DNA of 64,000 bases from Crocinitomicaceae bacterium (lineage in GTDB: Bacteria > Bacteroidota > Bacteroidia > Flavobacteriales_D > Crocinitomicaceae), in contig JAJTCM010000001.1 in assembly GCA_021325675.1 (NCBI GenBank), forward strand, positions 682,001-746,000. Direction: 5' to 3'. The position numbers and the translations under genes were made by a program. The notes beneath the pieces were generated by a model that saw only the letters and a list, made by a program, of their open reading frames with translations, was not told where the DNA came from and did not search any database. Numbering within the stretch: position 1 is the stretch's first letter; every line of letters starts with the position of its first letter. Of this stretch, positions 12,676 through 41,329 are shown piece by piece.

Positions 12676-12861
12676 TTAAATTAAATTACTAATTGCCTGA
12701 TATGCCCAGGAACAAACGGAATAGATCCCGAGGCCCAGAACGCCGAAGATAACGGAGAACAGAATTGTAAACGTTATCTTCTCTTTGAGATTGATAGCTT
12801 CACGCTGGTCAAAATCCTGCGTCCTGAATTTGGGAACTAATAAGTTATTAGTCCTTTTCAT
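12676..12861 (-). CDS. Small single-pass membrane protein
   Basis: 61 residues: a basic soluble N-terminus (MKRTNNLLVPKFRTQDFDQR) and one membrane helix (about 30-55, ITFTILFSVIFGVLGLGIY) close to the C-terminus. No family recognised. The case for a real gene rests on a normal ATG, a charged-then-hydrophobic layout, and a GTATTTATAC element 79 bp upstream in the position seen in front of the neighbouring signalling genes. Could be an auxiliary of the adjacent kinase/enzyme operon. Confidence 0.55.
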   Translation of the reverse strand: MKRTNNLLVPKFRTQDFDQREAINLKEKITFTILFSVIFGVLGLGIYSVCSWAYQAISNLI

Positions 12862-12939
12862 ATTGTTTTGTTTTAGTTTGAGTTTTGAGTAAAAATAATT
12901 TTAAATTTCAACTAAATCCTGTTTTCACTCTAAAAACAC

Positions 12940-12949
12940 GTATAAATAC
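12940..12949. promoter_or_regulatory. GTATTTATAC palindromic element, site 1
   Basis: GTATAAATAC on the plus strand within a longer imperfect palindrome (ACGTATAAATACTTACG), 79-88 bp upstream of the small membrane protein start. One of seven exact copies in the window, all intergenic. Confidence 0.7.
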
Positions 12950-13021
12950 TTACGAAAACAGCAATTAATACGCAACGCTCAAGGAAAGCTATTTTTTGGA
13001 TACAAGCTTTGAAGAAAATTT

Positions 13022-13678
13022 TCAGAAATCGTACCCGTTTTTCAGGGCATATTTGACAAGCCCTACCGTAGAATTGATGTTCAGCTTTTCCATAATTTTC
13101 TTGCGGTGGCCTTCAATTGTTCGCTTACTGATGTGAAGAATATCTGCAATTTCATGATTGGTGTGCTCTTTTACAATCAGCGCCATGATCTGGATCTCGC
13201 GTTTGGAAAGATTGTCTTCAAACTGGATGATAGACTTCATTTCCTTGCTGCGCTTGTCATCCTGGAAAATGAGCTGTGTCACTTCGTTACTAAAGTAACG
13301 CTCACCCCTCAGCACCGTAAAAATGGCTTTCACCAGCTCTTCGACGCCCGAATTCTTAAGTAAATAACCCAAAGCCCCAAGGTCAAGCGCCTGTTTTACG
13401 ATCGTCTCGTCCTTGTGCATCGTCAGGATAATTACAGGAATATGGATATCGGAAGATTTCAGCTTATTGAGCACCGAAAGCCCGTCCATTTCCGGCATGG
13501 TCAAGTCGAGAAAGATGATATCGATCATCGTATTTTTGATAACCTCCAGCACTTCCAGGCCGGTTGATGCCTCAGAAATAACGGGAACAAATTGTTTTTG
13601 CTGCTCCAGCATAAGCTTAATCCCGCTCCGGATCATCAGGTGATCATCTGCAATTAAAATATTTATCTCCTTATTCAT
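13022..13678 (-). CDS. NarL/LuxR-type response regulator
   Basis: 218 residues: receiver domain with D11-D12, phosphoacceptor D58 (IIFLDLTMPEMDG) and the T/K switch residues (ILTMHKDE; LLKNSG), then a C-terminal LuxR-type helix-turn-helix (LSKREIQIMALI, HEIADILHISKRTIEGHRKK). Its start overlaps the kinase stop by 4 nt (translational coupling). It is the last gene of the AOS-STAS-kinase operon and is the obvious candidate to bind the GTATTTATAC elements; that binding is inference. Confidence 0.94.
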   Translation of the reverse strand: MNKEINILIADDHLMIRSGIKLMLEQQKQFVPVISEASTGLEVLEVIKNTMIDIIFLDLTMPEMDGLSVLNKLKSSDIHIPVIILTMHKDETIVKQALDLGALGYLLKNSGVEELVKAIFTVLRGERYFSNEVTQLIFQDDKRSKEMKSIIQFEDNLSKREIQIMALIVKEHTNHEIADILHISKRTIEGHRKKIMEKLNINSTVGLVKYALKNGYDF

Positions 13679-14844
13679 ATATCAAAAATCAAAGTTGTTC
13701 CTTTTTCGGGCGTACTTTCATATACGTATTCCGAATCCAGCGATTTCAGCCGGTGAATGATGTTGAGTATCCCGTTTTTGTTATCGACTTTATCCATTTC
13801 AAAGCCCACACCGTCGTCACGCAGGCTGAAAGTAACGGAATTGGAATTTCCCGCCTTGCTGATCTTAATGTAAATGTTTTCCGCTTTGGAATGTTTTACC
13901 GAGTTGTTCAGGAATTCCTGGATAATCCGGTAAATAATGAGCTCGTCGTTTTTATCCTTCAGGGAAATTTCCTGCTTGGAAACGATCGTGTTGATCTTCA
14001 CGCCACCCGTCAGGTTGAGCCTGTAAGTCAGGTCTTTAATACTGGAAACGAGGTCAGTCCGGGCAAAAGAGTTTGGCGTCAGGTCGTTGGTGATTTCCCG
14101 CACGAGGTTTACCGATTCGTCCAGCATGCTGTGAATGTTCGCAATGGATTTTTTATATTTCATGGAAGTGATATCCATGTATTTCATCGCATTGAGGTAC
14201 ATTTTCATTGCATTGAGCTCCTGGCCGAGGGAATCATGTAAATCGAAAGCAATGCGTTTCCGCTCAAGCTCCTGCCCCAGGATCGTAGCTTTGAGGATCC
14301 GCTGTTCCTCGTTCTTTTTATCCGTAATATCTTTGGCAACTAGGATGAAGTGATTGTCCTTTACTTCGTTGATCTTAATCAGCGAGCTTTGCAGGTATTT
14401 TGTTTTCCGGTTGCGGATCACCGGGACCTCAAAGCTGGCTTCTTTGCGGGAAGTTTTTTTCAGCTGGTTGATTTTTTCCATGATCTCGGGCGGGAAAATA
14501 TCCGAGGTCTTTAATGTCGAAACTTCGCGGTTCTGAATGAAATATTTCAAACCTGTTTTATTGATAAAATCGATCGTTTCGTTGATGTCGAATACGATCA
14601 CAATCTGGGGAATGGAATTGAAAATCTTCAGGAAGTAATCTTTTGAGACGGATTTTTCCTGCAGCTCTTCGCCCAGCATGTTGATCCCGGATGCAATGAT
14701 ATCATTTTCGTCGTAATTCTCAGAAATCTCCAGGCGCCTGGAAAAATCCCCGTTTGCATACGAGAATATAATGTCCTGTATTTCGGAGATCACATAGCTG
14801 TTATCCTTTTCCATGGATGATTTTACTGAAACGATTTGAGCCAT
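13675..14844 (-). CDS. Soluble PAS-HisKA_3 sensor histidine kinase
   Basis: 389 residues with no membrane helix. The N-terminal segment (about 15-65) ends in a HAMP-like helical stretch, a PAS domain covers about 68-180, and the NarX-type dimerisation domain has ERKRIAFDLHDSLGQELNAM with His203. The ATPase domain contains EFLNNSVKHSKA and LRDDGVGFEMD. It therefore senses a cytosolic cue, possibly a small ligand in the PAS pocket. It overlaps the STAS-like gene by 22 nt and its partner regulator by 4 nt, so the order is enzyme, STAS, kinase, regulator in one transcript. Confidence 0.94.
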   Translation of the reverse strand: MAQIVSVKSSMEKDNSYVISEIQDIIFSYANGDFSRRLEISENYDENDIIASGINMLGEELQEKSVSKDYFLKIFNSIPQIVIVFDINETIDFINKTGLKYFIQNREVSTLKTSDIFPPEIMEKINQLKKTSRKEASFEVPVIRNRKTKYLQSSLIKINEVKDNHFILVAKDITDKKNEEQRILKATILGQELERKRIAFDLHDSLGQELNAMKMYLNAMKYMDITSMKYKKSIANIHSMLDESVNLVREITNDLTPNSFARTDLVSSIKDLTYRLNLTGGVKINTIVSKQEISLKDKNDELIIYRIIQEFLNNSVKHSKAENIYIKISKAGNSNSVTFSLRDDGVGFEMDKVDNKNGILNIIHRLKSLDSEYVYESTPEKGTTLIFDI

Positions 14845-15233
14845 TTTACAGCCTGGTTCTTGTCGGTAAACAAGCGGACAGGAATATTGTACCCGCTCAG
14901 GTTTACCTTAATTAAAAAGTTAGCCAGGAAAACAGAAAGCTTTGAATTGGTAAAAATCGCAGAAGCTTTCACGTATTCCGTCCCTTTGAAGGAGCCGAAA
15001 TAATCACGTGCTTCCTTCGAAACGCCTTTCACTGAAGATACATCCACAAAAATCAACGAATTTGTTGAATTGGAAATCTTTTTCCTATCCTCAACAATAC
15101 GCTTCGCAGCATCCAGGTCAACAAATAAGTTAGCCTTAAAAACCCCGAAGATTATGCCCTCTTCAATATAAATCGTTGCGTACTCATTGATAAATGCCTC
15201 CTTTTCTTCCATTCTTATTTGCAATTTAGACAA
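14823..15233 (-). CDS. STAS/SEC14-like protein A
   Basis: 136 residues, soluble, alternating strand/helix pattern of STAS or SEC14-like (DUF7793-type) proteins: IIFGVFKANLFVDLDAAKRI, LIFVDVSSVKGVSKEARDYF, IFTNSKLSVFLANFLIKVNL and a C-terminal VRLFTDKNQAVKWL. A paralogue lies at 17754-18146, on the other side of the enzyme gene. Such domains act as phospho-switched protein partners or bind lipids. It overlaps both neighbours, indicating tight co-expression with the kinase. No conserved Ser equivalent to SpoIIAA was assigned. Confidence 0.75.
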   Translation of the reverse strand: MSKLQIRMEEKEAFINEYATIYIEEGIIFGVFKANLFVDLDAAKRIVEDRKKISNSTNSLIFVDVSSVKGVSKEARDYFGSFKGTEYVKASAIFTNSKLSVFLANFLIKVNLSGYNIPVRLFTDKNQAVKWLKSFQ

Positions 15234-17625
15234 TGTTGTGGTTATAATTTTCTATGACCTCAAAATTAAACTGGTCTTTCAACTGCAAAAATGCAACTTT
15301 TTTTATTTGTTTCGCCCCTAATTTTTTCTTTTCTACATCTGCCGAAAATCCAAAGTGTATTTCACTGTACTTCAAATCAATAGCACGTAAGCAAACCTGG
15401 TAAAGCATCTGTTTATAACTGTTGTATTGCGCATTCAGCCCGTAATCCAAGCCTACAATTAAGGGGTTGTAAAACCCTTTGGCCTTGTGGCAGAAACCTA
15501 CGGAAGCAAGCTCGTTCCCGATATACAGCTTGATGAATTCCCAGTCGGGCGATTCATTGATTTTGGAGAAAAAGCTGAAAGGATAAGCGAATTCGTTGAT
15601 CCCGCGGCTTTTGGAAGATACATTTAAAAACAAGCTGTAAGCGGTGTTGAGCTCACCTTTTTCCAGCGTATCGGCGCACTCAACGCGAAAGTGGTGCTCA
15701 AATTTCAGGACATCATCTTTGATATGCCTTCTGCTTCGCGCTGACAAGCTACTGAAAAACTGTGATTTGTCCTGTACTAAACCCGTAATGACATTCGTAT
15801 CCGGCATCTGGATCTTCAGGTAAGAATTTTCGTGGAAATGAGAGAAAAAAGGCTCATCTTCGTTAAAATCCCGTAAAATTACCGTGTTCAGGTCTTCTTT
15901 TTCCTGGATTTGCGCCAACTTTTCGAGCAGCATCCGAACGGCTTTTTCCCAACCGGTTTTGCTTCTATCCAGGTACATGTGCTCACCTTCAGTAACCAAA
16001 GAGCCCATCATCAGGAAACGGGAACACAGAAAGTACTTGTCTTCCACCCTCTTTTCTTCAATTGCATTGGAAATATGCACCGGTGAGAGTAAATCTTCCT
16101 TAAAAAGACCGCTGGTGAAAAAGGTCGCAAGCACAATTTCTTTTTTACTGTTGCGCACCACCACGTAATGAAAATCCCAGTTTTCTTCCGGAAGGTCATT
16201 TCCGCTGAAAGCTTCTTCCAATAAAACGAGGGCAGCATAATCGTAATTGCCTTTATTTGCAAAGGCGTTGTCCCACTCTTCTTGCCTGATATTTTTGATG
16301 CTCTGCTCATAGCTCACTTCCAGCCCGGCATTTTTGCTTACCGTTACGGAATCATGATCCAGCAAAGGCAGGTGAAAAGCTTTGCGCACATCATTAAGCG
16401 TTTTGCCTTCCTGCTCCAGCGCCAGCGGATAATGTTTCACGAGGGCGTCAACGAGCGCTTTGATGTCTTCAAGGCTGTTGTGGTTGGTAATCGTGAAGCG
16501 CAGCCCTGTATTTTTTAATGGTACGGCCGGGAACATGGCGATATTTACATAAAACCCGTCGTCCAGGATCCGCTTGTTGAGATTGTAGCCTACGACCGGC
16601 TGCCCGGTGCAAAGGAAAAATATCGGGGTTTCAGGGTTTGAGATTACCGGCAGGTTGGTTTCAGCAAAGAGCTTGTTGGCATAATCCAGCTTTTCTTTGA
16701 GGGAAGCCTGCAGCGTATAAATCTCATCTGAAAGGTGAATTTTGGCAGAAGCGATGGAAGCTCCGAGCATGGGCGGCGGAATTGGATGGGAGTGTGTCAG
16801 TGCGCCGCCGTAAATGCTCACTTTAGCGAACCATTTATCATCCGGGAAAACGGCAATACCGCCCATAACGCCAAAACCTTTGGCCATCGTTGTTACGTAT
16901 ATCGTCCGCTTATTTTCTTTTGCTTCTTTATAGATCCGTCCGCAGCCATGCTTACCGAACCAGCTCATTCCGTGGGCATCATCAACATACAGGTGAAGCT
17001 GCGGGTATTTTTCCATCAAGGCGTTGATTTCGTCAATCGGTGCCACATCACCGTACATGGAGTAAACGCCGTCGATCATGTACCAGATTTTGCTGTATTT
17101 ATCCCGCATCTGCTTGATTTTGTACTCGAGCATTTCGAGGTTGCTGTGACGTACGATATCAACGGGGACGCCTTTGGCCCGCATGAGCTGGGCGGCTGTC
17201 TGGATACTGGCGTGGCACTGCTGATCGAGAATAATCGCGTCCTCCGCTTCAACAACAGCCGGGAGCACAGATATGTGCAGTAAAGATGTGGAGGAATACG
17301 TCAGAACAGGCTTCGAATCAAAGATTTCAGAAAGCAAATCTTCCAGGTAAGCCGTTTTGTCGGACATCAAATACGTTCGTGAAACCGAAAACTGTGTTCC
17401 GGAATGCTGCGCATATTCAATTGATTTTTTTATGATCCGGGGATGTGATTCAAGGCCCATGTAGCCGCACGTGCCGAAATTCCGCATGCGCTGCTTACCA
17501 ACTTTCATGTGGGACCCCTCCCATTTTTTGCTATTGTATTTCAACTGGATAACCCCGCGGGATTTCGCTTCCGTCAATAAATCATTGATGGTTTCGTTGA
17601 AGCTGTGATGTTTTATTTTAGCCAT
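15226..17625 (-). CDS. Alpha-oxoamine-synthase-like PLP enzyme fused to GNAT domain
   Basis: 799 residues, about twice the length of a normal alpha-oxoamine synthase (near 400). Residues about 1-410 show the fold-type I PLP enzyme: FGTCGYMGLESHP near 50-62, LDQQCHAS (133-140), YVDDAHGMSWFG (DDAH at 215-218) and the PLP lysine in TTMAKGFGVMGG (Lys249). The usual G-S-G-x-S-R segment is replaced by GTQFSVSRTYLMSD, so the substrate pocket differs from KBL and BioF. Residues about 430-799 form a GNAT/FemAB-like acyltransferase region (RSRRHIKDDVLKFEHHFRVE; ELASVGFCHKAKG). The family condenses an acyl-CoA with an amino acid (long-chain bases, aminoketone autoinducers); the fused acyltransferase could acylate the product. 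First gene of the signalling operon. The product is unknown. Confidence 0.85.
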   Translation of the reverse strand: MAKIKHHSFNETINDLLTEAKSRGVIQLKYNSKKWEGSHMKVGKQRMRNFGTCGYMGLESHPRIIKKSIEYAQHSGTQFSVSRTYLMSDKTAYLEDLLSEIFDSKPVLTYSSTSLLHISVLPAVVEAEDAIILDQQCHASIQTAAQLMRAKGVPVDIVRHSNLEMLEYKIKQMRDKYSKIWYMIDGVYSMYGDVAPIDEINALMEKYPQLHLYVDDAHGMSWFGKHGCGRIYKEAKENKRTIYVTTMAKGFGVMGGIAVFPDDKWFAKVSIYGGALTHSHPIPPPMLGASIASAKIHLSDEIYTLQASLKEKLDYANKLFAETNLPVISNPETPIFFLCTGQPVVGYNLNKRILDDGFYVNIAMFPAVPLKNTGLRFTITNHNSLEDIKALVDALVKHYPLALEQEGKTLNDVRKAFHLPLLDHDSVTVSKNAGLEVSYEQSIKNIRQEEWDNAFANKGNYDYAALVLLEEAFSGNDLPEENWDFHYVVVRNSKKEIVLATFFTSGLFKEDLLSPVHISNAIEEKRVEDKYFLCSRFLMMGSLVTEGEHMYLDRSKTGWEKAVRMLLEKLAQIQEKEDLNTVILRDFNEDEPFFSHFHENSYLKIQMPDTNVITGLVQDKSQFFSSLSARSRRHIKDDVLKFEHHFRVECADTLEKGELNTAYSLFLNVSSKSRGINEFAYPFSFFSKINESPDWEFIKLYIGNELASVGFCHKAKGFYNPLIVGLDYGLNAQYNSYKQMLYQVCLRAIDLKYSEIHFGFSADVEKKKLGAKQIKKVAFLQLKDQFNFEVIENYNHNIV

Positions 17626-17690
17626 AATTACTAAAATTGTCTAATATACTATGAACTGCCTCGCATCTTGTTAACGGATTCACAAAACAC

Positions 17691-17722
17691 GTATTTATAC
17701 TTATTCAAATGAGTATAAATAC
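17691..17722. promoter_or_regulatory. Paired GTATTTATAC elements upstream of the AOS operon
   Basis: GTATTTATAC at 17691-17700 and its inverted copy GTATAAATAC at 17713-17722, 22 bp apart start to start (two helical turns), both flanked by ACAC or TGTGT on the outer side. They are 66-97 bp upstream of the fusion enzyme start. A TATATTAG box (minus strand, 17641-17648) may be the -7 element. Confidence 0.75.
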
Positions 17723-17753
17723 CCTTGTGTTTTTCGTGAAAAATTATACAAAA

Positions 17754-18146
17754 TTATACCATTTCGGCTTCTTTCAGAGCGGCTAACCACTCAATTGCTT
17801 TTTCCTGATCTGCAAAAAGACGGATCGGGACCTGTGAATTTTTAAAACTGACTTTGATGATGAAATTGGCGATAAATTTAGTGAGGGTTGAATTCACAAA
17901 AACGGCAATACCTTTTAACTGAACGGTTCCTTTTTCCATACCCAGGAAATCACGCGCCTGTTTCTCCACTACCTTTACTTTCGTTACATCGCAGAAAAGA
18001 TAGACGGGCTTGTAATTGGTGAACTGCAGGCCTTCACGGATCATTTCTTCCACTATTTCCAGGGAAATCTGTTCAGGTTTACATTGTAAGTGGACAAAGT
18101 CCTTATGGTCAACCAAATGTATATATTTTCCTTCAAAGCTACCCAT
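17754..18146 (-). CDS. STAS/SEC14-like protein B
   Basis: 130 residues, paralogous to the protein at 14823-15233 over its whole length (shared blocks: FCDVTKVKVVEKQARDFLG, VFVNSTLTKFIANFIIKVSF, VPIRLFADQEKAIEWL). Soluble, no signal peptide. Encoded upstream of the enzyme operon, with 128 bp and a pair of elements between them, and has its own pair of elements 80-111 bp upstream. Likely works with or antagonises protein A; no binding partner can be read from sequence. Confidence 0.75.
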   Translation of the reverse strand: MGSFEGKYIHLVDHKDFVHLQCKPEQISLEIVEEMIREGLQFTNYKPVYLFCDVTKVKVVEKQARDFLGMEKGTVQLKGIAVFVNSTLTKFIANFIIKVSFKNSQVPIRLFADQEKAIEWLAALKEAEMV

Positions 18147-18225
18147 TTGCCGTTGTTCTAGTGGTTTGGCTATACAATGTTAGCTATAAATTTTCGAAAT
18201 CATTTACGTACAAAAGTGTAAACAG

Positions 18226-18257
18226 GTATTTATACTAGCGTAAACGGGTATTTATAC
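18226..18257. promoter_or_regulatory. Directly repeated GTATTTATAC elements upstream of STAS-like B
   Basis: GTATTTATAC at 18226-18235 and 18248-18257, within a 22-bp direct repeat (AG-T/C-GTAAAC-A/G-GGTATTTATAC). Spacing again is exactly 22 bp, as at 17691-17722. Lies 80-111 bp upstream of the STAS-like B start. Confidence 0.78.
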
Positions 18258-18337
18258 CTTGAAAACAGGTGGGTAAACCGCCCAAAATAGCCACCAAAGG
18301 AATTGATGATGTGACCGGGGCGGGAGTTTCAGATTCC

Positions 18338-18928
18338 TTAATTATCACTCGGATCAAGCGGAAAGCCGGAAATAAGCCTGTATTTAGGGCCGAGCTTGTT
18401 CATGAAGTACTTCCAGTGGTCTTCATACTTCGAAGTCATGATTTCCTTTGCATCTTCGGGATGGCAGACAACCCAGGAATGGCGGTCAATCTCTTCCTGC
18501 AGCTGTCCTGCGTTCCAGCCTGAATAACCGAGAAAGAAACGGATTTTATCTTCCGCGATATGCTCAGATGTAAGGTGTGTATATAATTGCTCAAAATCCC
18601 CGCCAATAAAGATTCCCGGCGAGATTTCCAGGCTGTCGTTCAGCTCTTCGGCAAGGGTATGTATGAAATACATGGTTTCTTTTTCCACCGGCCCGCCAAT
18701 GCTCACTTTTGTATCAAGGTCAGGGAATTCATCGTTGAGCTGGCTCAGGTTGACCTCAATGTAATGGTTGATCACAAAGCCGAAGCTGCCTTCCGGTGAA
18801 TGCTCGCACAGGTATACCACGGAGCGTTCGAAATATTCATCCCCCATGAAGGGATCGGACAGCAGAATGCAGCCTTTTTTGGGCTCCAGTTTGTTTGTAA
18901 ATGTTATATCCGGAATTTTCTTAGACAT
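18338..18928 (-). CDS. yqgE: YqgE/AlgH family protein
   Basis: 196 residues, typical UPF0301 length. Signature pieces are visible: GCILLSDPFMGDEYFERSVV at the start of the fold, VYLCEHSPEGSFGFVIN, SIGGPVEKETMYFIHT, and RFFLGYSGWNAGQLQEEI. Cytosolic protein of unsettled function (named AlgH in Pseudomonas). It follows the M16 peptidase gene on the same strand with a 7-bp gap, so cotranscription is likely. Confidence 0.96.
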   Translation of the reverse strand: MSKKIPDITFTNKLEPKKGCILLSDPFMGDEYFERSVVYLCEHSPEGSFGFVINHYIEVNLSQLNDEFPDLDTKVSIGGPVEKETMYFIHTLAEELNDSLEISPGIFIGGDFEQLYTHLTSEHIAEDKIRFFLGYSGWNAGQLQEEIDRHSWVVCHPEDAKEIMTSKYEDHWKYFMNKLGPKYRLISGFPLDPSDN

Positions 18929-18935
18929 GAATCTG

Positions 18936-21815: not shown

Positions 21816-21926
21816 TCTGTGTTTTATTTTTTTGAGAAGGTAAAAATAAGGATTTTAAATCAAAAGCCATAATCCTGTATTAATTTCTTCTAAATTTGCA
21901 AGTCAAAACACTTCAGGTGCAACAGA

Positions 21927-22370
21927 ATGTATCAATTTGAGATTAAAGCTTTTGACGATTTGTCAGTCCGTGAATTCCACGACATCCTGCAACTGCGTGT
22001 AAACGTGTTCATTGTAGAGCAAAACTGCCCGTATCCTGAGCTGGACGGCAAGGACCTGCTTTCCTTTCATGTTATTGGGCGTGACCAAAACGGCCGGGTT
22101 GCAGCAACTGCACGCATTCTCCCCCCGGGCGTATCTTACCCGGAAGTTTCGATAGGACGCGTTTCCAGCCATCCGGATTTCCGCGGAAAGGGCGTGGGAC
22201 ACCCGCTCATGGAAGCCGTTCTCAGCTTCATTGAAAAGCAGTTCGGCGCTGTCCCGGTCCGCATTTCCGCCCAGGCTTACCTGCTGGAATATTATAAAAA
22301 ACATGGTTTCGTCCCGACGGGAAAAGAGTACCTGGAAGATGATATTCCGCATGTGGAGATGCTTCGGTGA
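21927..22370 (+). CDS. ElaA-like GNAT N-acetyltransferase
   Basis: 147 residues. ElaA features: RVNVFIVEQNCPYPELDGKD at the N-terminal strand, acetyl-CoA loop region RVSSHPDFRGKGVGHPLM (R/Q-x-x-G-x-G/A pattern), and YKKHGFVPTGKEYLEDDIPH at the end. Soluble acetyltransferase of unknown substrate. A TAAATTTG box at 21891-21898 is a reasonable -7 element. A 16-bp perfect palindrome starts 3 bp after the stop codon. Confidence 0.93.
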   Translation: MYQFEIKAFDDLSVREFHDILQLRVNVFIVEQNCPYPELDGKDLLSFHVIGRDQNGRVAATARILPPGVSYPEVSIGRVSSHPDFRGKGVGHPLMEAVLSFIEKQFGAVPVRISAQAYLLEYYKKHGFVPTGKEYLEDDIPHVEMLR

Positions 22371-22372
22371 GT

Positions 22373-22388
22373 TGTATGGATCCATACA
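22373..22388. repeat. 16-bp perfect palindrome after the ElaA-like gene
   Basis: TGTATGGATCCATACA, immediately downstream of the stop codon. No T-run follows, so it is more likely a protein site or hairpin than an intrinsic terminator. Confidence 0.7.
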
Positions 22389-22487
22389 CATAACACATCC
22401 CATTCAACATTCATAATCCGTCGCTTATCAAATAATCACCGGAAAAACCGGATTTTGTTATACATTTGACATCGTAAAATTTAAATC

Positions 22488-24566
22488 ATGAAAACACAGC
22501 AGCTTTCAGTTTACCTTTTGAGCGGATTTATCCTGCTTGGCGCTACAACCGGCCTGGCCCAGGAAAGAACGTATTCCAAAAAGAACAAAAAAGACGAAAA
22601 GAACCAGAAATCGAAAGAGGTGCTTTTCAACCAGGGCTACATGGACCTGACCGTGCGCCCGCAGGACGATTTTTTCAAATTTGCTAACGGCACGTGGGTA
22701 AAAAACAACCCTGTCCCGCCGAGTGAATCACGCTGGGGAAGCTTTAACGAGCTTGATAAGGCCAATAAAGCCAAGCTTACGAAAATACTCGAGGACCTGA
22801 AAGCGACCAAAAGCGCACCGAAATCCATTGAACAGATGCTGGGCGCATATTACGCTTCATTTACGGATATGACCAAGCGCAACGAGCTGGGAATGAAGCC
22901 CATCAAAGCGGACCTTGCTAAAATCAACGGGATGACCGCATACACGGATGTTGTTGCCATTGTTGCCGAGCAGCACAAATACGGCGTAAGCTCCCTGTTT
23001 GGGATCGGCGTTGGCCAGGACATGAAGGATGTGAACAAAAACATCACGTACCTCGGACAGAGCGGGATCGGCTTACCAAACCGCGATTATTATTTCGAAG
23101 AAAATAAAAAAGGCCTGCTGACCAAGTATAAGGAGCACGTAAAATCCATTTTCAAGCTTGCGGGATACAGCGATGAGAAAGCGCAAACCGCAGCACGCAA
23201 CGTGGTTGCTTTTGAAACCCGCCTGGCTGAAAAAATGATGACGCAAGCGGAATTGCGCGTGCCTGAAAACAGCTATAACAAGCTCACTAAAAAAGAGACG
23301 GAAGAGCTTTTCGGGGCTTTTGATTTTGATAAATACCTGTCACTCGTCGGCAGTCAATCGTTTGATCACATTATTGTCGGGCAGCCTGATTTCATTAAAA
23401 ACGTGAACAAGCTCGTTAAGGGCACTTCTATTGAACAAATGAAGGATTACCTGAGCTGGTGTACACTGAACAGCTATGCTTCCCACCTGGATGAAAAGTT
23501 TGTGGCAGAAGATTTTGCGTTTTACCAGACTGTCATGAGCGGAAAAACACAGATGAAGCCACTGAACGAGCTGGCTATCAATGAAATTACAGAAATGACA
23601 ATCAGTGAAGCTTTAGGTAAACTGTTTGTTCAGAAATATTTTTCCGAAAGGGCGATGAACCGCGTAAACGGGATGGTTGACAACCTGCTTGCTACTTACA
23701 ACGAGCGGATCCAGGCCCTGAGCTGGATGAGCGACTCAACGAAGCAGGAGGCGCTTAAGAAACTGAATTCTATCGGCCGCAAGCTGGGCTTTCCAAGCAA
23801 ATGGGAGGATTTCAGCGACCTGGAGCTGACGGCGGACAATTACATTGAAAACCGTAAGAAATGTGCTTCCCGCGATGTTGCCAAGAATTTTGCCGAGCTG
23901 TATAAGCCGATCGACAAGGAGAAATGGGGAATGCCTGCACACCTCGTGAATGCTTACTACAACCCGCTCCTGAACGAAATCGCTTTCCCGGCAGGGATCA
24001 TGCAACCGCCTTTCTTTGATGAAAATGCAGAGGACGCGCTTAACTACGGCCGGATCGGAATGGTAATCGGGCACGAGTTTACGCACGGCTTTGACGACAT
24101 GGGCTCCAAATTCGCGGCTGACGGAAGCTTTACAAACTGGTGGTCGGAAGCTGACCGCACGGCTTTCGAGGAAAAGACAAAAGTGCTGGGAGAAACATTT
24201 TCTGTTTTCTGCCCGATGGAAGGCCACTGCGTTAACCCGGAGCTGACCATGGGTGAAAACATTGCCGACCTTGGCGGGATCACGCTGGCATATTACGCGT
24301 ATACGAAAACGGATGAATTTAAATCGGCTGCCATTAAAAACGGGTACAACCCGGCGCAGCGCTTTTTCATTTCCCTGGCGCAGCTCTGGAAGATCAATTA
24401 TACCGATGCCGAGCTGAAGAAACGGATTGCGAGCGATGAGCATTCACCGGGCATGTACCGTGTGAACGGCCCCCTGAAGAACTGCCCGGAATTCTTTGCA
24501 GCTTTTGATGTGAAGGAGGGTGATGCGATGCGGAATGCTGCCGTTAAGGTGGCCAGGATCTGGTAA
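22488..24566 (+). CDS. M13-family metallopeptidase (neprilysin-like)
   Basis: 692 residues with an N-terminal signal-like segment (MKTQQLSVYLLSGFILLGAT). The gluzincin motif HEFTH (529-533) lies in GMVIGHEFTHGFDD, the third zinc ligand in ENIADLGGITLAYYAY, and substrate-binding NAYYNP plus the C-terminal HSPGMYRVNGPLKN are present, so all catalytic parts appear intact. Zinc endopeptidase acting on oligopeptides in the periplasm. A TACATTTG box (22461-22468) serves as -7 element, and a terminator follows at 24611. Confidence 0.97.
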   Translation: MKTQQLSVYLLSGFILLGATTGLAQERTYSKKNKKDEKNQKSKEVLFNQGYMDLTVRPQDDFFKFANGTWVKNNPVPPSESRWGSFNELDKANKAKLTKILEDLKATKSAPKSIEQMLGAYYASFTDMTKRNELGMKPIKADLAKINGMTAYTDVVAIVAEQHKYGVSSLFGIGVGQDMKDVNKNITYLGQSGIGLPNRDYYFEENKKGLLTKYKEHVKSIFKLAGYSDEKAQTAARNVVAFETRLAEKMMTQAELRVPENSYNKLTKKETEELFGAFDFDKYLSLVGSQSFDHIIVGQPDFIKNVNKLVKGTSIEQMKDYLSWCTLNSYASHLDEKFVAEDFAFYQTVMSGKTQMKPLNELAINEITEMTISEALGKLFVQKYFSERAMNRVNGMVDNLLATYNERIQALSWMSDSTKQEALKKLNSIGRKLGFPSKWEDFSDLELTADNYIENRKKCASRDVAKNFAELYKPIDKEKWGMPAHLVNAYYNPLLNEIAFPAGIMQPPFFDENAEDALNYGRIGMVIGHEFTHGFDDMGSKFAADGSFTNWWSEADRTAFEEKTKVLGETFSVFCPMEGHCVNPELTMGENIADLGGITLAYYAYTKTDEFKSAAIKNGYNPAQRFFISLAQLWKINYTDAELKKRIASDEHSPGMYRVNGPLKNCPEFFAAFDVKEGDAMRNAAVKVARIW

Positions 24567-24610
24567 TACAGGTATTGTTCCCACAATTTTTTTGCCACAT
24601 TAGGCAATAT

Positions 24611-24648
24611 AAGGCACATGGTTTTGCAGCTGTGTGCCTTTTTTGTTT
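24611..24648 (+). terminator. Intrinsic terminator after M13 peptidase
   Basis: AAGGCACA (24611-24618) pairs with TGTGCCTT (24633-24640) across a 14-nt loop, followed by TTTTGTTT. The rest of the 24567-24875 gap holds only the receptor promoter region (TATTTTCG at 24849). Confidence 0.85.
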
Positions 24649-24875
24649 GGATCGCAGAGGACGCCATGTCGTATCAGGGAGTCAAAGCTGGTTTATCAGC
24701 TCAACTAAAACTTGGTAAACCCTGCGTAAACTTCGCTTTCCCGGCGATCCGGCTTAACCTTACTTTCCCCCGGGGAACACTTTAATCAATGAAAGACAGC
24801 TTTTAATATATCGGGTTCCTGAATTCTTTTTTATCCTAAAATTATTTGTATTTTCGGCCCGATAAACTTATACGT

Positions 24876-27218
24876 ATGAAAATTTGCCTTACTTTAATCA
24901 TAACATTCTTTTTAACGGCTACTGCAACTATTTACGGACAATCCGCTACAGTAAGGGGTTTTATTTATGACCAATCCAACGGTGAGCCGGTACTGTTTCA
25001 AAAAGTAAAGCTAACGAGCTCACTCGGAACTATTTACGGGGCTATTTCGGATGTGAACGGTTTCTTCTCCATCCCGAAGCTGAACACCGGGGAATATGAC
25101 CTGCGGGTTGAAAGCTCCGGTTTTGATACGATCGCCCAAACGATAACCATCAAAAAGGCAACGGAAATCATTGATTTGAAGATCGAGCTGGTTAAAAGCC
25201 TCGTGACTGACCTTGAAGAGGTGAATATTACCGCTGAAACGAAGCGTAAAAAGACAGAAGTTGCCATATCGCAAATCAAACTGGATAAAAAAGGAATTGA
25301 GCGGATCCCGAGTGTGGGCGCAGAAAATGACGTTGTGGGCGCCTTCAGTGTGACCCCGGGCGTTGTAACTACCGGCGACCAGGGCGGACAGCTTTATGTG
25401 CGCGGCGGAACACCAATCCAGAATAAGATCTTACTGGACGGAATGACGATTTATACCCCTTTCCACTCCATCGGTTTCTTCTCTATTTTTGAAACGGAGC
25501 TGATCAAAAACGTTGACATTTATACGGGAGGATTTGACTCTAAATACGGGGGACGTATCTCATCGGTTATGGACATCACTTACCGCGACGGTAATAAAAA
25601 GGAATTGGGCGGAAAGGTTTCCGTAAGCCCGTTCCTGGCGAAATTAGTGCTCGAAGGGCCAATCGTCCCGGGCAAAAACGGCAAATCTGCCAACAACTCT
25701 TTTATCTTTTCGGCCAAGCATTCCCTGCTGGACTACACTTCGAAGGACCTGTACCCGCGGGTGAACAACGGCGAGGGGCTTCCTTTTAAATTTACAGATT
25801 TGTACGGTAAAATCACCCTGAGCTCTGACGGCGGCTCTAAATTCAGCTTTTTCGGATTTAACAACTCGGACCGCGTTGATTATACGAACCTGGCCGAGCT
25901 TGGCTGGCAGCAATCGGGCGGGGGAATGAATTTCGTATTGATCCCTTCCGGCTCACCGGTATTTATCCGCGGGCACCTCAATGCTTCCCGTTATTCCCTG
26001 AGCTTCCTGGAGCAGGACCTCCCGGAACGCAGCAGCTCCATCGGCGGCGCTGAGCTTGGCTTTGACTTCACGTATTTCCAGAAAAACGAGGGGCAGTTTG
26101 ATATCGGTGTTGCGATCAACGGCTTCAATACCAAGTACCTGACCTACAACGAAGCAGCGCGCAAGATCGAGGACGAAAACTTTAACTTCGAGTTTAACAC
26201 GTACCTGAATTATAAAATTATCCGCGGACGTTTCGTGATCCAGCCGGGAATCCGTTTGCAGACTTACCTTTCGCAGGCAGTTGTTTCCCCTGAGCCACGT
26301 CTCGGTGTGAAATACAATGCTACGGAAAACCTCCGCTTCAAAGTATCCGGCGGGCGCTATTCGCAAAACTTCACTTCTGCTTCTTCGGACAAGGACATCG
26401 TGAACCTTTTTAACGGGCTCCTCTCCGCCCCTACCAACTTCCAATCGGAGTTTGTGAGTGAAAGCGGCAAAGTTTCCCAGGTAAAAAATGCGCTCCAATT
26501 TGCATGGCACGCGATTTTCGGCCTTGAATACGACCTGGGCAAGTACTGGAGCCTAAACCTCGAAGGATACCTGAAATACTTCGATCAGCTGAGCAACATC
26601 AACCAAAACAAAATCTACGAGGATGTGGCGACTTTCGCGAACATCGATGACGTTTACAAAAAGGATTTTATTATTGAAAGCGGAAAATCCTACGGGGTTG
26701 ACGCCCTGCTGAAATATTCCAGGGAGCGCTGGTTCTTCTGGGGAGTTTATTCTTACGGCTATTCTTACCGCTGGGACGGCTTTGAGCGCTATTTCCCGGT
26801 GTTTGACCGCCGCCACAACGTTAACCTCGTTGGTACGTACCTTTTCGGCAAGAAAAAGAACCTGGAACTGAGCACGCGCTGGAACCTCGGCTCGGGACTT
26901 CCTTACACACCAACTGCAGGCGGCTACCAGACGGAGAACTTCAGCGGCGGGATCGCTACGGACTATACGACGAGCAACAGCAACAACGTTACGCTTGTTT
27001 ACGGCGAGTTTAATTCCCAGCGCCTGCCTTACTATCACCGCCTTGATATTACCGTGAAGAAGAACATGCAGTTTAAAAACAAAAGCAACCTGGAAATCAT
27101 TGCAAGCGTTACAAACGTGTATAACCGCCGGAATATTTTCTACAAAAACAGGATCACGAACGAGGAGGTTTACCAGTTCCCGATGCTGCCAAGCTTGGGT
27201 GTGAATTATAAATTTTAA
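24876..27218 (+). CDS. TonB-dependent receptor with carboxypeptidase-regulatory domain
   Basis: 780 residues from the ATG at 24876 (an upstream in-frame TTG at 24846 lies in the promoter and is unlikely). Signal peptide (MKICLTLIITFFLTATATIYG), CarboxypepD_reg-like domain (about 22-105: ATVRGFIYDQSNGEPVLFQ), plug domain with VVGAFSVTPGVVTTGD and QLYVRGGTPIQNKILLDGM, then a beta-barrel ending in an aromatic strand (PSLGVNYKF). There is no SusD partner next to it, so it is more likely a metal/siderophore or unassigned substrate importer than a glycan system. Confidence 0.95.
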   Translation: MKICLTLIITFFLTATATIYGQSATVRGFIYDQSNGEPVLFQKVKLTSSLGTIYGAISDVNGFFSIPKLNTGEYDLRVESSGFDTIAQTITIKKATEIIDLKIELVKSLVTDLEEVNITAETKRKKTEVAISQIKLDKKGIERIPSVGAENDVVGAFSVTPGVVTTGDQGGQLYVRGGTPIQNKILLDGMTIYTPFHSIGFFSIFETELIKNVDIYTGGFDSKYGGRISSVMDITYRDGNKKELGGKVSVSPFLAKLVLEGPIVPGKNGKSANNSFIFSAKHSLLDYTSKDLYPRVNNGEGLPFKFTDLYGKITLSSDGGSKFSFFGFNNSDRVDYTNLAELGWQQSGGGMNFVLIPSGSPVFIRGHLNASRYSLSFLEQDLPERSSSIGGAELGFDFTYFQKNEGQFDIGVAINGFNTKYLTYNEAARKIEDENFNFEFNTYLNYKIIRGRFVIQPGIRLQTYLSQAVVSPEPRLGVKYNATENLRFKVSGGRYSQNFTSASSDKDIVNLFNGLLSAPTNFQSEFVSESGKVSQVKNALQFAWHAIFGLEYDLGKYWSLNLEGYLKYFDQLSNINQNKIYEDVATFANIDDVYKKDFIIESGKSYGVDALLKYSRERWFFWGVYSYGYSYRWDGFERYFPVFDRRHNVNLVGTYLFGKKKNLELSTRWNLGSGLPYTPTAGGYQTENFSGGIATDYTTSNSNNVTLVYGEFNSQRLPYYHRLDITVKKNMQFKNKSNLEIIASVTNVYNRRNIFYKNRITNEEVYQFPMLPSLGVNYKF

Positions 27219-27301
27219 AAAAAAATCAAGCAAGCTGAGCTTAAAAATCAGCCGGTTAGAGCAAGGGTGAAAAATAATTTGAGAAAAACTCAAAAAATCC
27301 C

Positions 27302-27331
27302 TTGCCGAATTGAAAAAAGTACATATATTTG
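27302..27331 (+). promoter_or_regulatory. Promoter of tRNA-Lys
   Basis: TTG at 27302-27304 and TATATTTG at 27324-27331, offset 22 nt; transcription would start near GCACCCG, about 90 nt before the tRNA. Confidence 0.75.
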
Positions 27332-27426
27332 CACCCGCAATCACGTTAGTGAAAGCGATTTGAAATACGAAACATCAACAAGTTTAGGGAGTGAACATCC
27401 TCCGTCAAAGACTTCAGATGTTGAAA

Positions 27427-27499
27427 GATTCCGTAGCTCAGCTGGTAGAGCAATACACTTTTAATGTATGGGTCCTGGGTTCGAATCCCAGCGGGATCA
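27427..27499 (+). tRNA. tRNA-Lys (anticodon UUU)
   Basis: Seven-base-pair acceptor stem GATTCCG / CGGGATC (one G-U), D-arm AGCTCAGCTGGTAGAGCA, anticodon stem ATACA / TGTAT with loop CTTTTAA (anticodon TTT), T-arm CTGGGTTCGAATCCCAG. 73 nt including the discriminator A; CCA is not encoded. Confidence 0.97.
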
Positions 27500-27635
27500 C
27501 TTCTAAAAGCATCAATCGAAAGGTTGGTGCTTTTTTTGTTTTATGCGTTCGCTTGTTTATATCCTGTACTGTTAAAGCACTCCTTTCTATTCAAAAAAAT
27601 CCCCTGATTATCATTTCTATTTAACAATATACTTA

Positions 27636-27690
27636 TATGCATTCAATACGCTTTAAGTATGCTTCAACTATGCTTGAAATATGCTTGAAC
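27636..27690. repeat. Five 11-bp tandem repeats
   Basis: Units: TATGCATTCAA, TACGCTTTAAG, TATGCTTCAAC, TATGCTTGAAA, TATGCTTGAAC, in register with no spacers. The 11-bp period puts each unit on nearly the same DNA face. Sited between tRNA-Lys and the pterin dehydratase gene (150 bp upstream of its start). Confidence 0.8.
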
Positions 27691-27841
27691 TATACAGGCC
27701 TGTGAAATCAAAACAACCCACCGAATGGTTTCTTCGCTTAACCCGGGATAAGAACTAAGATCCTGGGCACTCAGACTGGTGTTTTGTTTCCTGAATTTCG
27801 TATATTTGAATTCATACAAACCTTTGCTAATACCTTTAATT

Positions 27842-28072
27842 ATGTGGACAGAAACAGATAACACCTTGCACCGCTCCTTTGAATTCAAAGATTTTCCGGA
27901 TGCTTTTGCCTTTATGACCCGTGTGGCTTTCGTGGCTGAAAAATTAAACCACCACCCTACCTGGAAGAATGAATATAATAAAGTGGAGATCTGGCTGTGC
28001 ACACATAGCGCCAACCATACGGTAACTGAAAAAGACCGGGATCTGGCGCGGAAGATTGATGAGATCGTTTAG
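27842..28072 (+). CDS. Pterin-4a-carbinolamine dehydratase
   Basis: 76 residues from the ATG at 27842 (an open frame extends to 27779 but lacks family-like sequence). The catalytic motif EKLNHHPTWKNEYNKVEIWL with H37, H38 and the later H55 (CTHS) is intact. It regenerates quinonoid dihydropterin from 4a-hydroxytetrahydrobiopterin after aromatic amino-acid hydroxylation, and the fold also serves as a dimerisation cofactor. No hydroxylase gene lies in this window. Slightly shorter at the N-terminus than typical (about 95). Confidence 0.93.
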   Translation: MWTETDNTLHRSFEFKDFPDAFAFMTRVAFVAEKLNHHPTWKNEYNKVEIWLCTHSANHTVTEKDRDLARKIDEIV

Positions 28073-28077
28073 TTTCG

Positions 28078-28149
28078 CCCCCTAAAAAACAAGGGGGAAA
28101 AATCACGTATTTATACGCTTGTGTGTGAATTGCAGACGCAATATCTTAG
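28078..28149 (+). promoter_or_regulatory. Composite promoter: CCCCCT/AGGGGG hairpin, GTATTTATAC element, -33/-7 boxes
   Basis: Inverted repeat CCCCCT (28078-28083) / AGGGGG (28092-28097); GTATTTATAC at 28107-28116; TTG at 28119-28121; TATCTTAG at 28142-28149. The element is separated from the -33 TTG by only GC, and the -33 to -7 offset is 23 nt. The same layout (element, GC, TTG, 23 nt, TAnnTTAG) occurs at 29861-29903. Confidence 0.72.
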
Positions 28150-28171
28150 CACAATATAATTCACTGAAAAT

Positions 28172-28741
28172 ATGATCCCTGCAATTACCCCTCCTACGGA
28201 CAATCTCTATAAGTTCCTTTCTTTATTTGGATTGACGATTTTTTTATTTGCAATTTATAACCTTGGCGCTGTTTATGACCGATCAGCAGAAAGTCAAATG
28301 AAAATCGAAGATATTAAAGTTGACGTCCAGAAAGCTATGTACCGTCATGATAAAATGATTAAGTTAAATATTGCAGTCAATGCCAATATAACCCAATTCA
28401 AGCCGGCAAAAATCAAAATGTTGGATGAAAATTTGCAGAAAATCAAACAGACTGTTATTAATTCTGACTTGAGACCAATTGTTAAGATTGAGCTTTATGG
28501 AGAGATAAGCAAGCAAAAAGTTGAATTAGATAGCATGATCTTTAAGCTTAAAGCCTGTATCGGATTTACAATTTTAGGCGCCCTGATTATGATTTTTGGT
28601 TTTTGGCGCTGGCACAAGCGTGAACAAACTTTGCGGGACCAAATGCTTGAAATGGAACATGAACAGAAAAAACGGGAGCAGCAAGATGGAGAGAAGCGGT
28701 CCCGAAGAATAATACCAAGGAGAATAGTTGAAGAGAATTAA
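28172..28741 (+). CDS. Two-helix membrane protein with coiled coil, unknown
   Basis: 189 residues: membrane helix about 13-33, a 90-residue segment rich in Lys/Ile/Asn predicted helical (AESQMKIEDIKVDVQKAMYR), a second membrane helix about 126-146 (GFTILGALIMIFGFWRW), and a charged C-terminal coiled coil (EHEQKKREQQDGEKRSRR). Probable topology: periplasmic loop between the helices with a cytosolic tail. No family recognised. Preceded by a composite GTATTTATAC promoter and followed by the TIR gene 111 bp later. Confidence 0.75.
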   Translation: MIPAITPPTDNLYKFLSLFGLTIFLFAIYNLGAVYDRSAESQMKIEDIKVDVQKAMYRHDKMIKLNIAVNANITQFKPAKIKMLDENLQKIKQTVINSDLRPIVKIELYGEISKQKVELDSMIFKLKACIGFTILGALIMIFGFWRWHKREQTLRDQMLEMEHEQKKREQQDGEKRSRRIIPRRIVEEN

Positions 28742-28852
28742 TTATTAAATCGCTAAATAATAAAGTCAATTATTTGGCCACTATTTTTTTTAGAAATGTC
28801 TATTATTATCTATCTTTAATTCTACTTTTTAACTTCACATCATTACTCAGAT

Positions 28853-29827
28853 ATGAAAGAAAATAAATATGATTTTTTCATCAGTCACGCCTCAGAAGAT
28901 AAAAACAGCTTTGTAAGGCCTTTAGTTGAAGCTCTCACGGAAAAAGGTTATAGAGTCTGGTATGACGAATCTTCACTCAAAATAGGTGATTCATTAATCC
29001 AAAATATTTCTAATGGAATTAAAAACTCATTGTATGGTATTATTGTTTTAAGCGAGAATTTTTTTGAAAAAACCTGGACAAAAAAAGAATTAGAAGCTCT
29101 CATTAGTAAAGAAATTATTACTGATGACAATTTAATTCTGCCCATTTGGCTTAATATAGATGTTAAAACTGTCTATGAATTCTCACCTTTATTAGTAGAT
29201 AAAATAGCCATTCAGGTTAATGCTAATCAAGTTGAAAAAGCCGTTATAGAAATTGAAAAGAAAGCAAAGCTCCAAATAACAACCAAAGAGAAAATTCGTG
29301 AAAAAATTAATTTAATCTGTACTCAAGGACCTGATCGGAGGATAAAATATGCTTACGACCTTGAAACAAGAATCAGAAATATTTTCCTTTTCCAGGAAGA
29401 ATTCTATAATATTTATACATCTGAAGAACTTTTTTCTAAAGATGAGGATTGGGATCAAATGCTTGTTGATCAAAAAGGCAAGGAGCTCCAGTTTGATTAT
29501 GACCTTCCAAATGGTGTTTGGTTGTGTGAAGAGCCATTTCCCTGGAGTGATATATTTAAAGCTATAAAGCTGGCAAAAAAATGGGTTAACAGAGATTTGA
29601 ATTACTATGAATGTCAGGAGCTTCATTTTTTATTGGACGAGGTATTGGATACCGATGTTTATTATACACTTTATGGCTTTCCACATTCTTCAATGAAGCA
29701 TGAATCAGCTAGGGAAGAAGCTATTAAGGGAATATTTGAAGTAGGCATTGGTAAGCCTTCTAGGAAGAAAAGAAAAATAGATGTAGAAAAAGTTTATGAA
29801 ACTACTTTTTTAAAGTACTATACCTAG
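28853..29827 (+). CDS. TIR-domain protein
   Basis: 324 residues. The TIR domain (about 5-130) starts YDFFISHASEDKNSF (6-20), has the BB-loop region VWYDESSLKIGDSL, and the conserved Glu of NAD-hydrolysing TIRs in WTKKELEAL (Glu79). Residues about 140-324 have no recognised domain. Bacterial TIR proteins are often NADases in anti-phage systems; a stand-alone one needs its own sensing domain, which the C-terminal part might be. The gene is visibly more A/T-rich than its neighbours, which suggests acquisition. Cytosolic, no membrane helix. Confidence 0.88.
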   Translation: MKENKYDFFISHASEDKNSFVRPLVEALTEKGYRVWYDESSLKIGDSLIQNISNGIKNSLYGIIVLSENFFEKTWTKKELEALISKEIITDDNLILPIWLNIDVKTVYEFSPLLVDKIAIQVNANQVEKAVIEIEKKAKLQITTKEKIREKINLICTQGPDRRIKYAYDLETRIRNIFLFQEEFYNIYTSEELFSKDEDWDQMLVDQKGKELQFDYDLPNGVWLCEEPFPWSDIFKAIKLAKKWVNRDLNYYECQELHFLLDEVLDTDVYYTLYGFPHSSMKHESAREEAIKGIFEVGIGKPSRKKRKIDVEKVYETTFLKYYT

Positions 29828-29860
29828 GCAAAATATATTTTTTACTTACTTTAAAATCAC

Positions 29861-29903
29861 GTATTTATACGCTTGTTTTTCTGCTTCAGTCCTTCTACTT
29901 TAG
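29861..29903 (+). promoter_or_regulatory. GTATTTATAC element with -33/-7 promoter
   Basis: GTATTTATAC at 29861-29870, TTG at 29873-29875, TACTTTAG at 29896-29903 (offset 23 nt). It drives the beta-helix gene at 29952. Confidence 0.72.
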
Positions 29904-40319: not shown

Positions 40320-41018
40320 TTATATGTTTTCTTTTGCAGGCATTTCACCTGTATGTACATCTGTCACGTTCACCACATTGACGCTCACATCACCTTTGCC
40401 TTTCTCTGGAGTATTATCTACCAGGCTTTCCTTGAGCATTCCTGCAAAATAAAAGCGCGTCCAGAGATAGCAGGCGATGAAGCCCACGATCAGGAAGTAA
40501 AGTACCACGCAGATAGCGATTGCTTTTGACACCTGCATGTGATTGGCATATTCGCCCGGAGCAAAACTCGGTCCGAGATAATTGGCAAGCTGGTCCAAGA
40601 ATTCGGGGACTTTGTTAATTTGGGTAAGGCCTACACCGACAATAATTTTCGTGAGCCAGTCGCTGATCTGCACGAGGTTATCGTTGTGCAACACTTCGCC
40701 CCTGGCCGATTTGATCGGTGCATTGTCAGAGGTGTTTTCGATGATCCGCGGAATCCCAAAGAGAAAACCCGCCAGTGAACCCAGGCAAAAACAGGCACCG
40801 GCCATCAGTAAAGCTGTTCCAAAGGTTACAAAAACCTGGGTTGCGTTATATCCGTTATAATTCACGTGACCATCCTGGTATTCAATGCCATAGCGCTGAA
40901 TACTCACCATTGCCAGCATCCCGACCCCGGAGAAATTCAGGATCCGGATAATACGCCAGATGCGGTTATTATCCAGTTTGTCACCTTCCGAAGCAATTCT
41001 ACGTTTTTTCCAGAACAT
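40320..41018 (-). CDS. Membrane protein with conserved NDNLVQISDWLTKII motif
   Basis: 232 residues with about three membrane helices (25-42, 68-92, 165-192). The stretch GSLAGFLFGIPRIIENTSDN, then HNDNLVQISDWLTKIIVGVG and LTQINKVPEFLDQLANYLG, is characteristic of an uncharacterised family spread across bacteria; I recall relatives next to proteases and conflict-system genes but cannot verify that here. The C-terminal tail is soluble (VSVNVVNVTDVHTGEMPAKE). It faces the subtilase operon convergently. Confidence 0.8.
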   Translation of the reverse strand: MFWKKRRIASEGDKLDNNRIWRIIRILNFSGVGMLAMVSIQRYGIEYQDGHVNYNGYNATQVFVTFGTALLMAGACFCLGSLAGFLFGIPRIIENTSDNAPIKSARGEVLHNDNLVQISDWLTKIIVGVGLTQINKVPEFLDQLANYLGPSFAPGEYANHMQVSKAIAICVVLYFLIVGFIACYLWTRFYFAGMLKESLVDNTPEKGKGDVSVNVVNVTDVHTGEMPAKENI

Positions 41019-41258
41019 AAGCGATTAGTTTAGACTGGTTTTACTTCGGGATAAATAAGAGAAGATCGCGGTAATATAAGTACCCCGCTTTTCGTTCCGT
41101 TTTCTGAAACGGCACATAGCTTTAGTAGTTGTGATCATAGCGTTAATTTGAAGTGTTTTTTGTAAACGAATTGATTTGGAGGTCAATGCGCTATACATCA
41201 AAGCTAAAAACTCATTCGTAAAAAACAAGCTTTTTGACTGATTTTCAATAAAAAACAC

Positions 41259-41306
41259 GTATAAACACCTATTTTTAACAGGGCTTTCCCCCTCATTTTT
41301 TAGGGG
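41259..41306 (-). promoter_or_regulatory. Variant GTATTTATAC element with CCCCT/AGGGG hairpin
   Basis: Minus strand: CCCCTAAAAAATGAGGGGG (41306 down to 41288), then GTGTTTATAC (41268-41259). The hairpin and the following GAAA match 28078-28100 almost base for base. It lies 241 bp upstream of the membrane protein gene at 41018; the gap (41019-41258) holds no gene I can support. Confidence 0.6.
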
Positions 41307-41329
41307 AACAAATATTCAGCAGACCGCCA

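Follow-up and report, generated by a model that had tools for sequence, protein, structure and literature searches.

We analysed a 64,000-nucleotide stretch of the genome of a Crocinitomicaceae bacterium (contig JAJTCM010000001.1, positions 682,001 to 746,000 of the forward strand; hereafter the window), in which a short palindromic element recurs in front of scattered genes. Because the element is enriched genome-wide, has a promoter geometry that holds on other genomes and precedes conserved targets, its identity as the transcription-factor operator of a regulon, proposed in a first-pass annotation of the window, is well supported by sequence comparison. Through this operator a two-component regulator probably switches on scattered surface, membrane and lipid-making genes. 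With the element, an uncharacterised kinase-regulator module, found repeatedly together with a lipid-synthase-like enzyme and STAS-like proteins, gains an immediate list of targets, and tail-collar-domain proteins are indicated as an output common beyond the order. From the spacing rule of the element, part of the regulon can be predicted by sequence in other Bacteroidota, and one unnamed control circuit is now open to bench testing.

The element had been described as a 10-mer (GTATTTATAC/GTATAAATAC), which proved to be only the core of a palindrome of about 24 bp (AAAACACGTATWWATACGTGTTTT), arranged in some promoters as a 22-bp doublet. The bare 10-mer was ruled out as the unit, since arms and doublets matter. 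A 24-column matrix, built from 23 sites elsewhere in this genome and none in the window, gave the consensus AAAACACGTATTAATACGTGTTTT, with the information mostly in GTATnnATAC and weaker AAACAC/GTGTTT arms. All seven exact 10-mer copies listed for the window were recovered (12940, 17691, 17713, 18226, 18248, 28107, and 29861), and the copy at 41259 carries one mismatch. When up to one mismatch was allowed, the window held 16 copies compared to 2.94 (standard deviation 1.66) in shuffles, and none of 100 shuffles reached 16. The matrix scored the eight claimed sites at 12.0-24.4, all within the top nine of the window, and placed the 41259 variant second, which marks it as a real site. The single other high scorer, at 6486 (16.1), lies inside an open reading frame (ORF) of 768 amino acids (4512-6818), and the next site scored 6.3. 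Nine window sites reached a score of at least 11, against a Markov mean of 0.35 (maximum of 1 in 20 runs).

All seven exact copies are intergenic, as claimed, and lie 55-101 nt upstream of a start codon rather than the 56-111 nt given earlier; gene calls here are simple ORF picks. On the minus strand, the operator at 12933-12956 (core 12940-12949) sits between the response regulator gene and a small membrane protein gene, 78 nt from the start at 12861, with a -7-like box, TATTTTTA, at 12897-12890. The operon that begins with an alpha-oxoamine synthase (AOS)-GNAT gene (start 17625, minus strand) has a promoter-proximal operator at 17684-17707 (core 17691-17700; distance 65 nt; -7-like box TATATTAG at 17648-17641) and a second one 22 bp further upstream at 17706-17729 (core 17713-17722; 87 nt). 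The same 22-bp doublet precedes the STAS-like gene B (start 18146, minus strand), with a proximal operator at 18219-18242 (core 18226-18235; 79 nt; -7-like box TAACATTG at 18182-18175) and a second at 18241-18264 (core 18248-18257; 101 nt). On the plus strand, the operator of a membrane protein gene (28172-28741) spans 28100-28123 (core 28107-28116; 55 nt; -7-like box TATCTTAG at 28142-28149), and that of a beta-helix protein gene (start 29952) spans 29854-29877 (core 29861-29870; 81 nt; -7-like box TACTTTAG at 29896-29903). The variant operator GTGTTTATAC at 41252-41275 (core 41259-41268, minus strand) is followed by a perfect -7 box, TAGCTTTG, at 41206-41199; a short ORF starting at 41138 and a membrane protein gene (40320-41018) are its possible targets.

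A scan of the complete source genome (G000; 3.57 Mb in 12 contigs) found 35 exact 10-mers against nine for a backwards-read control pattern. The copies were not equally frequent inside genes, 24 of the 35 being intergenic compared to two of the nine control matches (Fisher p = 0.021); L022 was scored as coding in this count solely because an upstream start codon extends the ORF of its own target. Ten copies lie inside long ORFs, about the number expected by chance, all of them lacking an exact GTTT arm, while the 15 distinct sites with that arm all fall outside long ORFs except L022. Once variants are counted, about 27 intergenic regions carry the element, in a list that is not exhaustive and in which a few may be chance copies. 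The genes that follow include the AOS-GNAT operon with its DUF7793 protein A, two further DUF7793 genes (17754-18146 and L025), small hydrophobic proteins recognised by eye (12676-12861 and L026), the beta-helix protein, tail-collar genes (L015 and L038), a patatin-like protein (L033), a PAS histidine kinase (L037), a protein with a type IX secretion system sorting tail (L027), and unknowns, some with signal-peptide-like starts.

Promoters in Bacteroidota are built from -33 and -7 elements (TTG...TAnnTTTG), and many copies of our element have a -7 box downstream in the same way; the difference is that a palindromic operator lies at or just above -33. Across 36 rows read in gene orientation, boxes resembling TAnnTTTG clustered 23-28 or 41-45 bp past the 10-mer, offsets that were picked by eye from these same rows. 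The offsets were then held fixed on further loci (49 oriented rows, in which certain sites enter twice, once per orientation, and which include a single row from the source genome). Of 53 boxes with 5 or 6 matches out of 6, 24 fell within the 11 of 60 positions that the offsets cover (P = 6e-6), as did 9 of 11 perfect -7 boxes (P = 9e-6). Doublets spaced by about 22 bp recur in several promoters (the window pairs, L024, L255, and L256). With the -7 box taken to end 7 bp before the transcription start, the palindrome centres fall near -43 and -61. These are the classical positions of activators, and the placement predicted from the sequence is an activator-like geometry. A word resembling a terminator (a C run, AAAAAA and a G run, or the GGGGG half alone) was also seen by eye near several element promoters, in the window around 28080-28100 and 41285-41310 and elsewhere at L001, L017, L029, and L036.

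We also searched 395 genomes of the class for the composite of operator, TTG and TAnnTTTG, which returned 19 matches in 11 genomes against none for the reversed control. Some matches may be non-functional; at least one, L243, possibly lies within coding sequence, and L238 and L241 showed no clear ORF downstream. This search, blind to gene content, picked up tail-collar (PF07484) genes at L234 and L235, in two genomes that belong to a single genus from outside the order. Collar genes stand behind the element within the order as well: in the source genome at two promoters, each with a degenerate second copy 21 bp away, in G198 behind a 22-bp doublet with one degenerate copy, and in G106 with a site 280 nt before the domain match. 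Together, these genes are the clearest sign of an output common to several genera and one other order, and they answer the question of conservation across related genomes, where conserved targets were found. Separately, contigs 2 and 11 of the source genome (L211-L232) hold nine tail-collar-domain matches in tandem clusters. G438, a genome from the class but not from the order, has five composite promoters (L237, L246, L250, L251, and L252), two of which are near-identical and precede paralogous proteins with signal-peptide-like starts. The element further precedes a SiaC-family gene (PF09345) in G088 and a gene with a Tle1-like phospholipase domain (PF09994) in G198 (L077 and L092).

The operon behind the window doublet belongs to a recurring module of AOS-GNAT enzyme, DUF7793 protein, HisKA_3 kinase and NarL-type regulator, in which kinase and regulator accompany the AOS gene at 12 of the 16 AOS loci known from the order. 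Of the 80 AOS-GNAT loci compared (L253-L332), the best of at least 574 relatives, 76 have a DUF7793 relative within the fetched stretch and 13 have all three partners, so that the AOS enzyme and the STAS-like protein look like the core pair; in those 76 loci the DUF7793 relative mostly comes without kinase and regulator. We ranked all 256 palindromes of the form 4-NN-4 in the stretches upstream of AOS and downstream of the regulator only, counting loci with the same AOS stretch once. At regulator modules GTAT..ATAC came first, at 9 of 26 loci compared to 0.63 expected with the window included, and it remained first at the 25 kinase-regulator modules with the window left out (8 versus 0.35 expected). 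At AOS genes without a regulator, in contrast, it occurred at 1 of 70 loci (0.33 expected under the Markov null) and ranked 201 under a single-base shuffle null and 31 under the Markov null. Restricted to the AOS-upstream stretch, it was present at 5 of the 24 loci that have a regulator, compared to 1 of the 70 that have none (p = 0.0038). The doublet itself is maintained: relative to the AOS start codon, its copies start at -97/-75 both in the window and in L255, and at -99/-77 in L256. Degenerate copies hold the 22-bp step in L098 (-93/-71) and L099 (-114/-92/-70). In G155, a STAS-STAS-kinase-regulator operon has a site immediately in front of it, and its regulator shares 47% identity with that of the window. 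Several modules also carry a small gene behind the regulator; the starts of this gene are alike (MK..IYxL...) in L104, L108, and L110.

The element is not confined to this module: it is also present in genomes that have no AOS-GNAT gene. We counted GTATWWATACSYG in 199 genomes of the order, where a symmetric site may count on both strands, as may the control. The excess over control was largest in G000 (30 versus 1), G198 (26 versus 1) and G002 (15 versus 1), followed by G088 (13 versus 0), G106 (12 versus 2) and G155 (11 versus 2), with weaker enrichment in a few others. AOS presence was ruled out as the driver of motif number, since G088, G106, G127 and G198 are rich in the element without AOS, and G097 and G167 stay at control level despite having it.

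Comparative evidence favours the window's own NarL-type regulator (13022-13678), already named as the candidate binder, and we hold it moderately probable that this protein binds the operator and activates both a dispersed regulon and its own operon. We infer binding, phosphorylation, activation and the signal as follows. The regulator would be phosphorylated by the neighbouring kinase, a step that the STAS-like DUF7793 proteins would influence. Its dimers would bind just upstream of a core promoter composed of the 10-mer, 2-3 nt, TTG, about 20 nt and TAnnTTTG, with the centre near -43, or in an alternative register about 17 bp further up and centred near -61, and sometimes as a pair of dimers spaced by two helical turns (22 bp). 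Bound in this manner they would most likely activate transcription, controlling the regulator's own AOS-GNAT/STAS/kinase/regulator operon together with dispersed membrane, secreted, STAS-like and tail-collar-domain genes. The nature of the targets suggests control of the cell surface.

Several observations weigh against this assignment. At least five GTATWWATACSYG matches were present in only 15 of the 199 genomes (3 of 199 for the control), and the two other genomes of the genus were weak for both this pattern (G019, 5 versus 0; G100, 4 versus 2) and the GTTT-arm pattern (0 versus 2 and 1 versus 3, respectively), even though G019 has the closest relative of the regulator (63% identity). Conversely, G088, G127 and G124 have the element, and their best matches to the regulator are only 33-40% identical; in these genomes it precedes a different operon, coding for a small protein, a membrane protein, a kinase and a NarL regulator. 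Within the source genome, only 3 of 8 DUF7793 genes are tied to a site that we found. No site was seen at 4 of 8 collar operons examined (G000 contig 11, G127, and G100 twice), a count that left out two weak G127 collar matches, and GTATnnATAC is missing from the tested stretches of 17 of the 25 regulator modules. Relatedness may also explain part of the association with the regulator, given that the subset of loci with AOS identity below 45% gave 3 of 17 versus 1 of 65 (p = 0.027), and some loci classed as lacking a regulator are cut by contig ends. The misfits in G088, G127, G124, G019 and the 17 modules imply either that the operator is common to several related NarL regulators or that another factor is involved.

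The first of these explanations, a tentative possibility that is compatible with binding by the window regulator and overlaps with it in probability, holds that several NarL-type regulators of Bacteroidota have a common operator, with paralogues of the same cell competing for its sites or using them jointly. Regulators linked to sites are scattered over the tree, several have the same recognition helices, such as RT(I/V)(E/D)(G/S)HR, and sites occur near distinct kinase-regulator operons; however, many regulators with a near-identical helix have no strict site in their stretch, and the cores drift between modules. The second explanation, which we regard as somewhat doubtful, is that a different NarL-type or higher-level regulator uses the operator and that the STAS-kinase-regulator operon is merely one of its targets. 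The genomes that have the element without an AOS-GNAT match (G088, G106, G127, G124, and G198) and the alternative operons in three of them fit this idea, as do the few sites in G019. Moreover, across six genomes a site occurs within 2.5 kb of 7 of the 42 NarL regulator genes, versus 0.63 expected, although this distance was chosen after looking, applies in either direction and includes the window regulator, with two of the seven sharing one site and G088 left out. Against it, the element tracks the adjacent regulator at AOS genes, and no single alternative emerged among the regulators listed. It is very improbable that the element belongs to a promoter recognised by an alternative sigma factor instead of being an operator in its own right: the preferred spacing to the -7 box at many sites would suit such a promoter, but the element is palindromic, occurs in two registers (23-28 and 41-45) and in some promoters as a 22-bp doublet, and is combined with a standard Bacteroidota -7 box. 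Chance clustering in AT-rich intergenic DNA accounts for about 9 of the 35 genome copies and may produce coding ones such as the ten found, but was ruled out for the flanked intergenic copies, with next to no probability left to it, by the genome controls, the cross-genome enrichment, the preset offsets, the composite pattern, the outside-trained matrix and the palindrome ranking.

The regulator favoured here resembles those of NarL/FixJ (LuxR-type) regulons (for example NarL, VraR, and DesR) in combining a receiver with a GerE helix-turn-helix, in having a HisKA_3 kinase gene next door, and in the dimer-sized palindromes that lie before presumed target promoters, its own operon included. As judged from sequence only, the palindromic operator is common to its own operon and distant genes. 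The NarL operator has a 7-2-7 arrangement with TAC-type heptamers that point inward; here GTA lies to the left and TAC to the right of the centre, not TAC...GTA, and AAAACACGTATTAATACGTGTTTT did not match the inward heptamers of the NarL consensus. Two-component regulons with a palindromic operator are a known kind. A literature search at the level of titles and abstracts, with subscription journals mostly uncovered, returned, among the entries listed, no precedent for this operator, geometry and target set. For Bacteroidota these entries likewise included no known binding site of such a regulator and nothing on DUF7793 or on collar regulation.

All genes of the window module lie on the minus strand. 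The response regulator (13022-13678; Response_reg and GerE, 100.4 and 66.2 bits), the most likely binder by comparison, adjoins the HisKA_3 kinase with a PAS-like region (13675-14844), its presumed partner. DUF7793 protein A (14823-15233) matches that family, with a SpoIIAA-like match below cut-off, and the STAS-like DUF7793 protein B (17754-18146) has its own doublet promoter. Partner switching of the stressosome kind pairs a STAS protein with a cognate serine kinase and phosphatase; the comparison here covers the STAS-like protein. The AOS-GNAT enzyme (15226-17625) has an extra C-terminal half that is weakly FemAB-acyltransferase-like, below cut-off. The nearest solved relatives of its N-terminal half are KAPA synthases and serine palmitoyltransferase (3e-30 and 2e-26, compared to 5e-7 for CqsA), and the enzyme falls below every NCBIfam cut-off for AOS families, the best being 267.5 of 342 bits (NF005697). 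CqsA and LqsA define alpha-hydroxyketone quorum-sensing systems, in which an alpha-oxoamine synthase gene likewise stands beside a kinase and a response regulator; the window enzyme differs in being much nearer to KAPA synthase and serine palmitoyltransferase and in its extra C-terminal half. A CqsA-type autoinducer synthase is unsupported (62.4 bits against the NCBIfam autoinducer-synthase cut-off of 428), and we infer a product that is ceramide- or sulfonolipid-like. A Bacteroidota-wide circuit of lipid-linked signalling, in which the level of a sphingolipid-like or oxoamine AOS-GNAT product would be read by the STAS-like proteins and passed through the kinase and the NarL regulator to a surface programme (tail-collar, beta-helix, and secreted proteins) via the operator, with positive feedback on the synthase operon, is an unlikely extension at this stage.

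The remaining presumed targets in the window are a small protein in which one hydrophobic stretch was recognised by eye (12676-12861, minus strand; 12940 site), a membrane protein with two such stretches, also read by eye (28172-28741, plus strand), and a right-handed beta-helix protein (PF13229; 29952-31439, plus strand). Between the last two genes, at 28853-29827, lies a gene that codes for a TIR-domain protein (PF13676, 77.4 bits) and may serve in defence or signalling.

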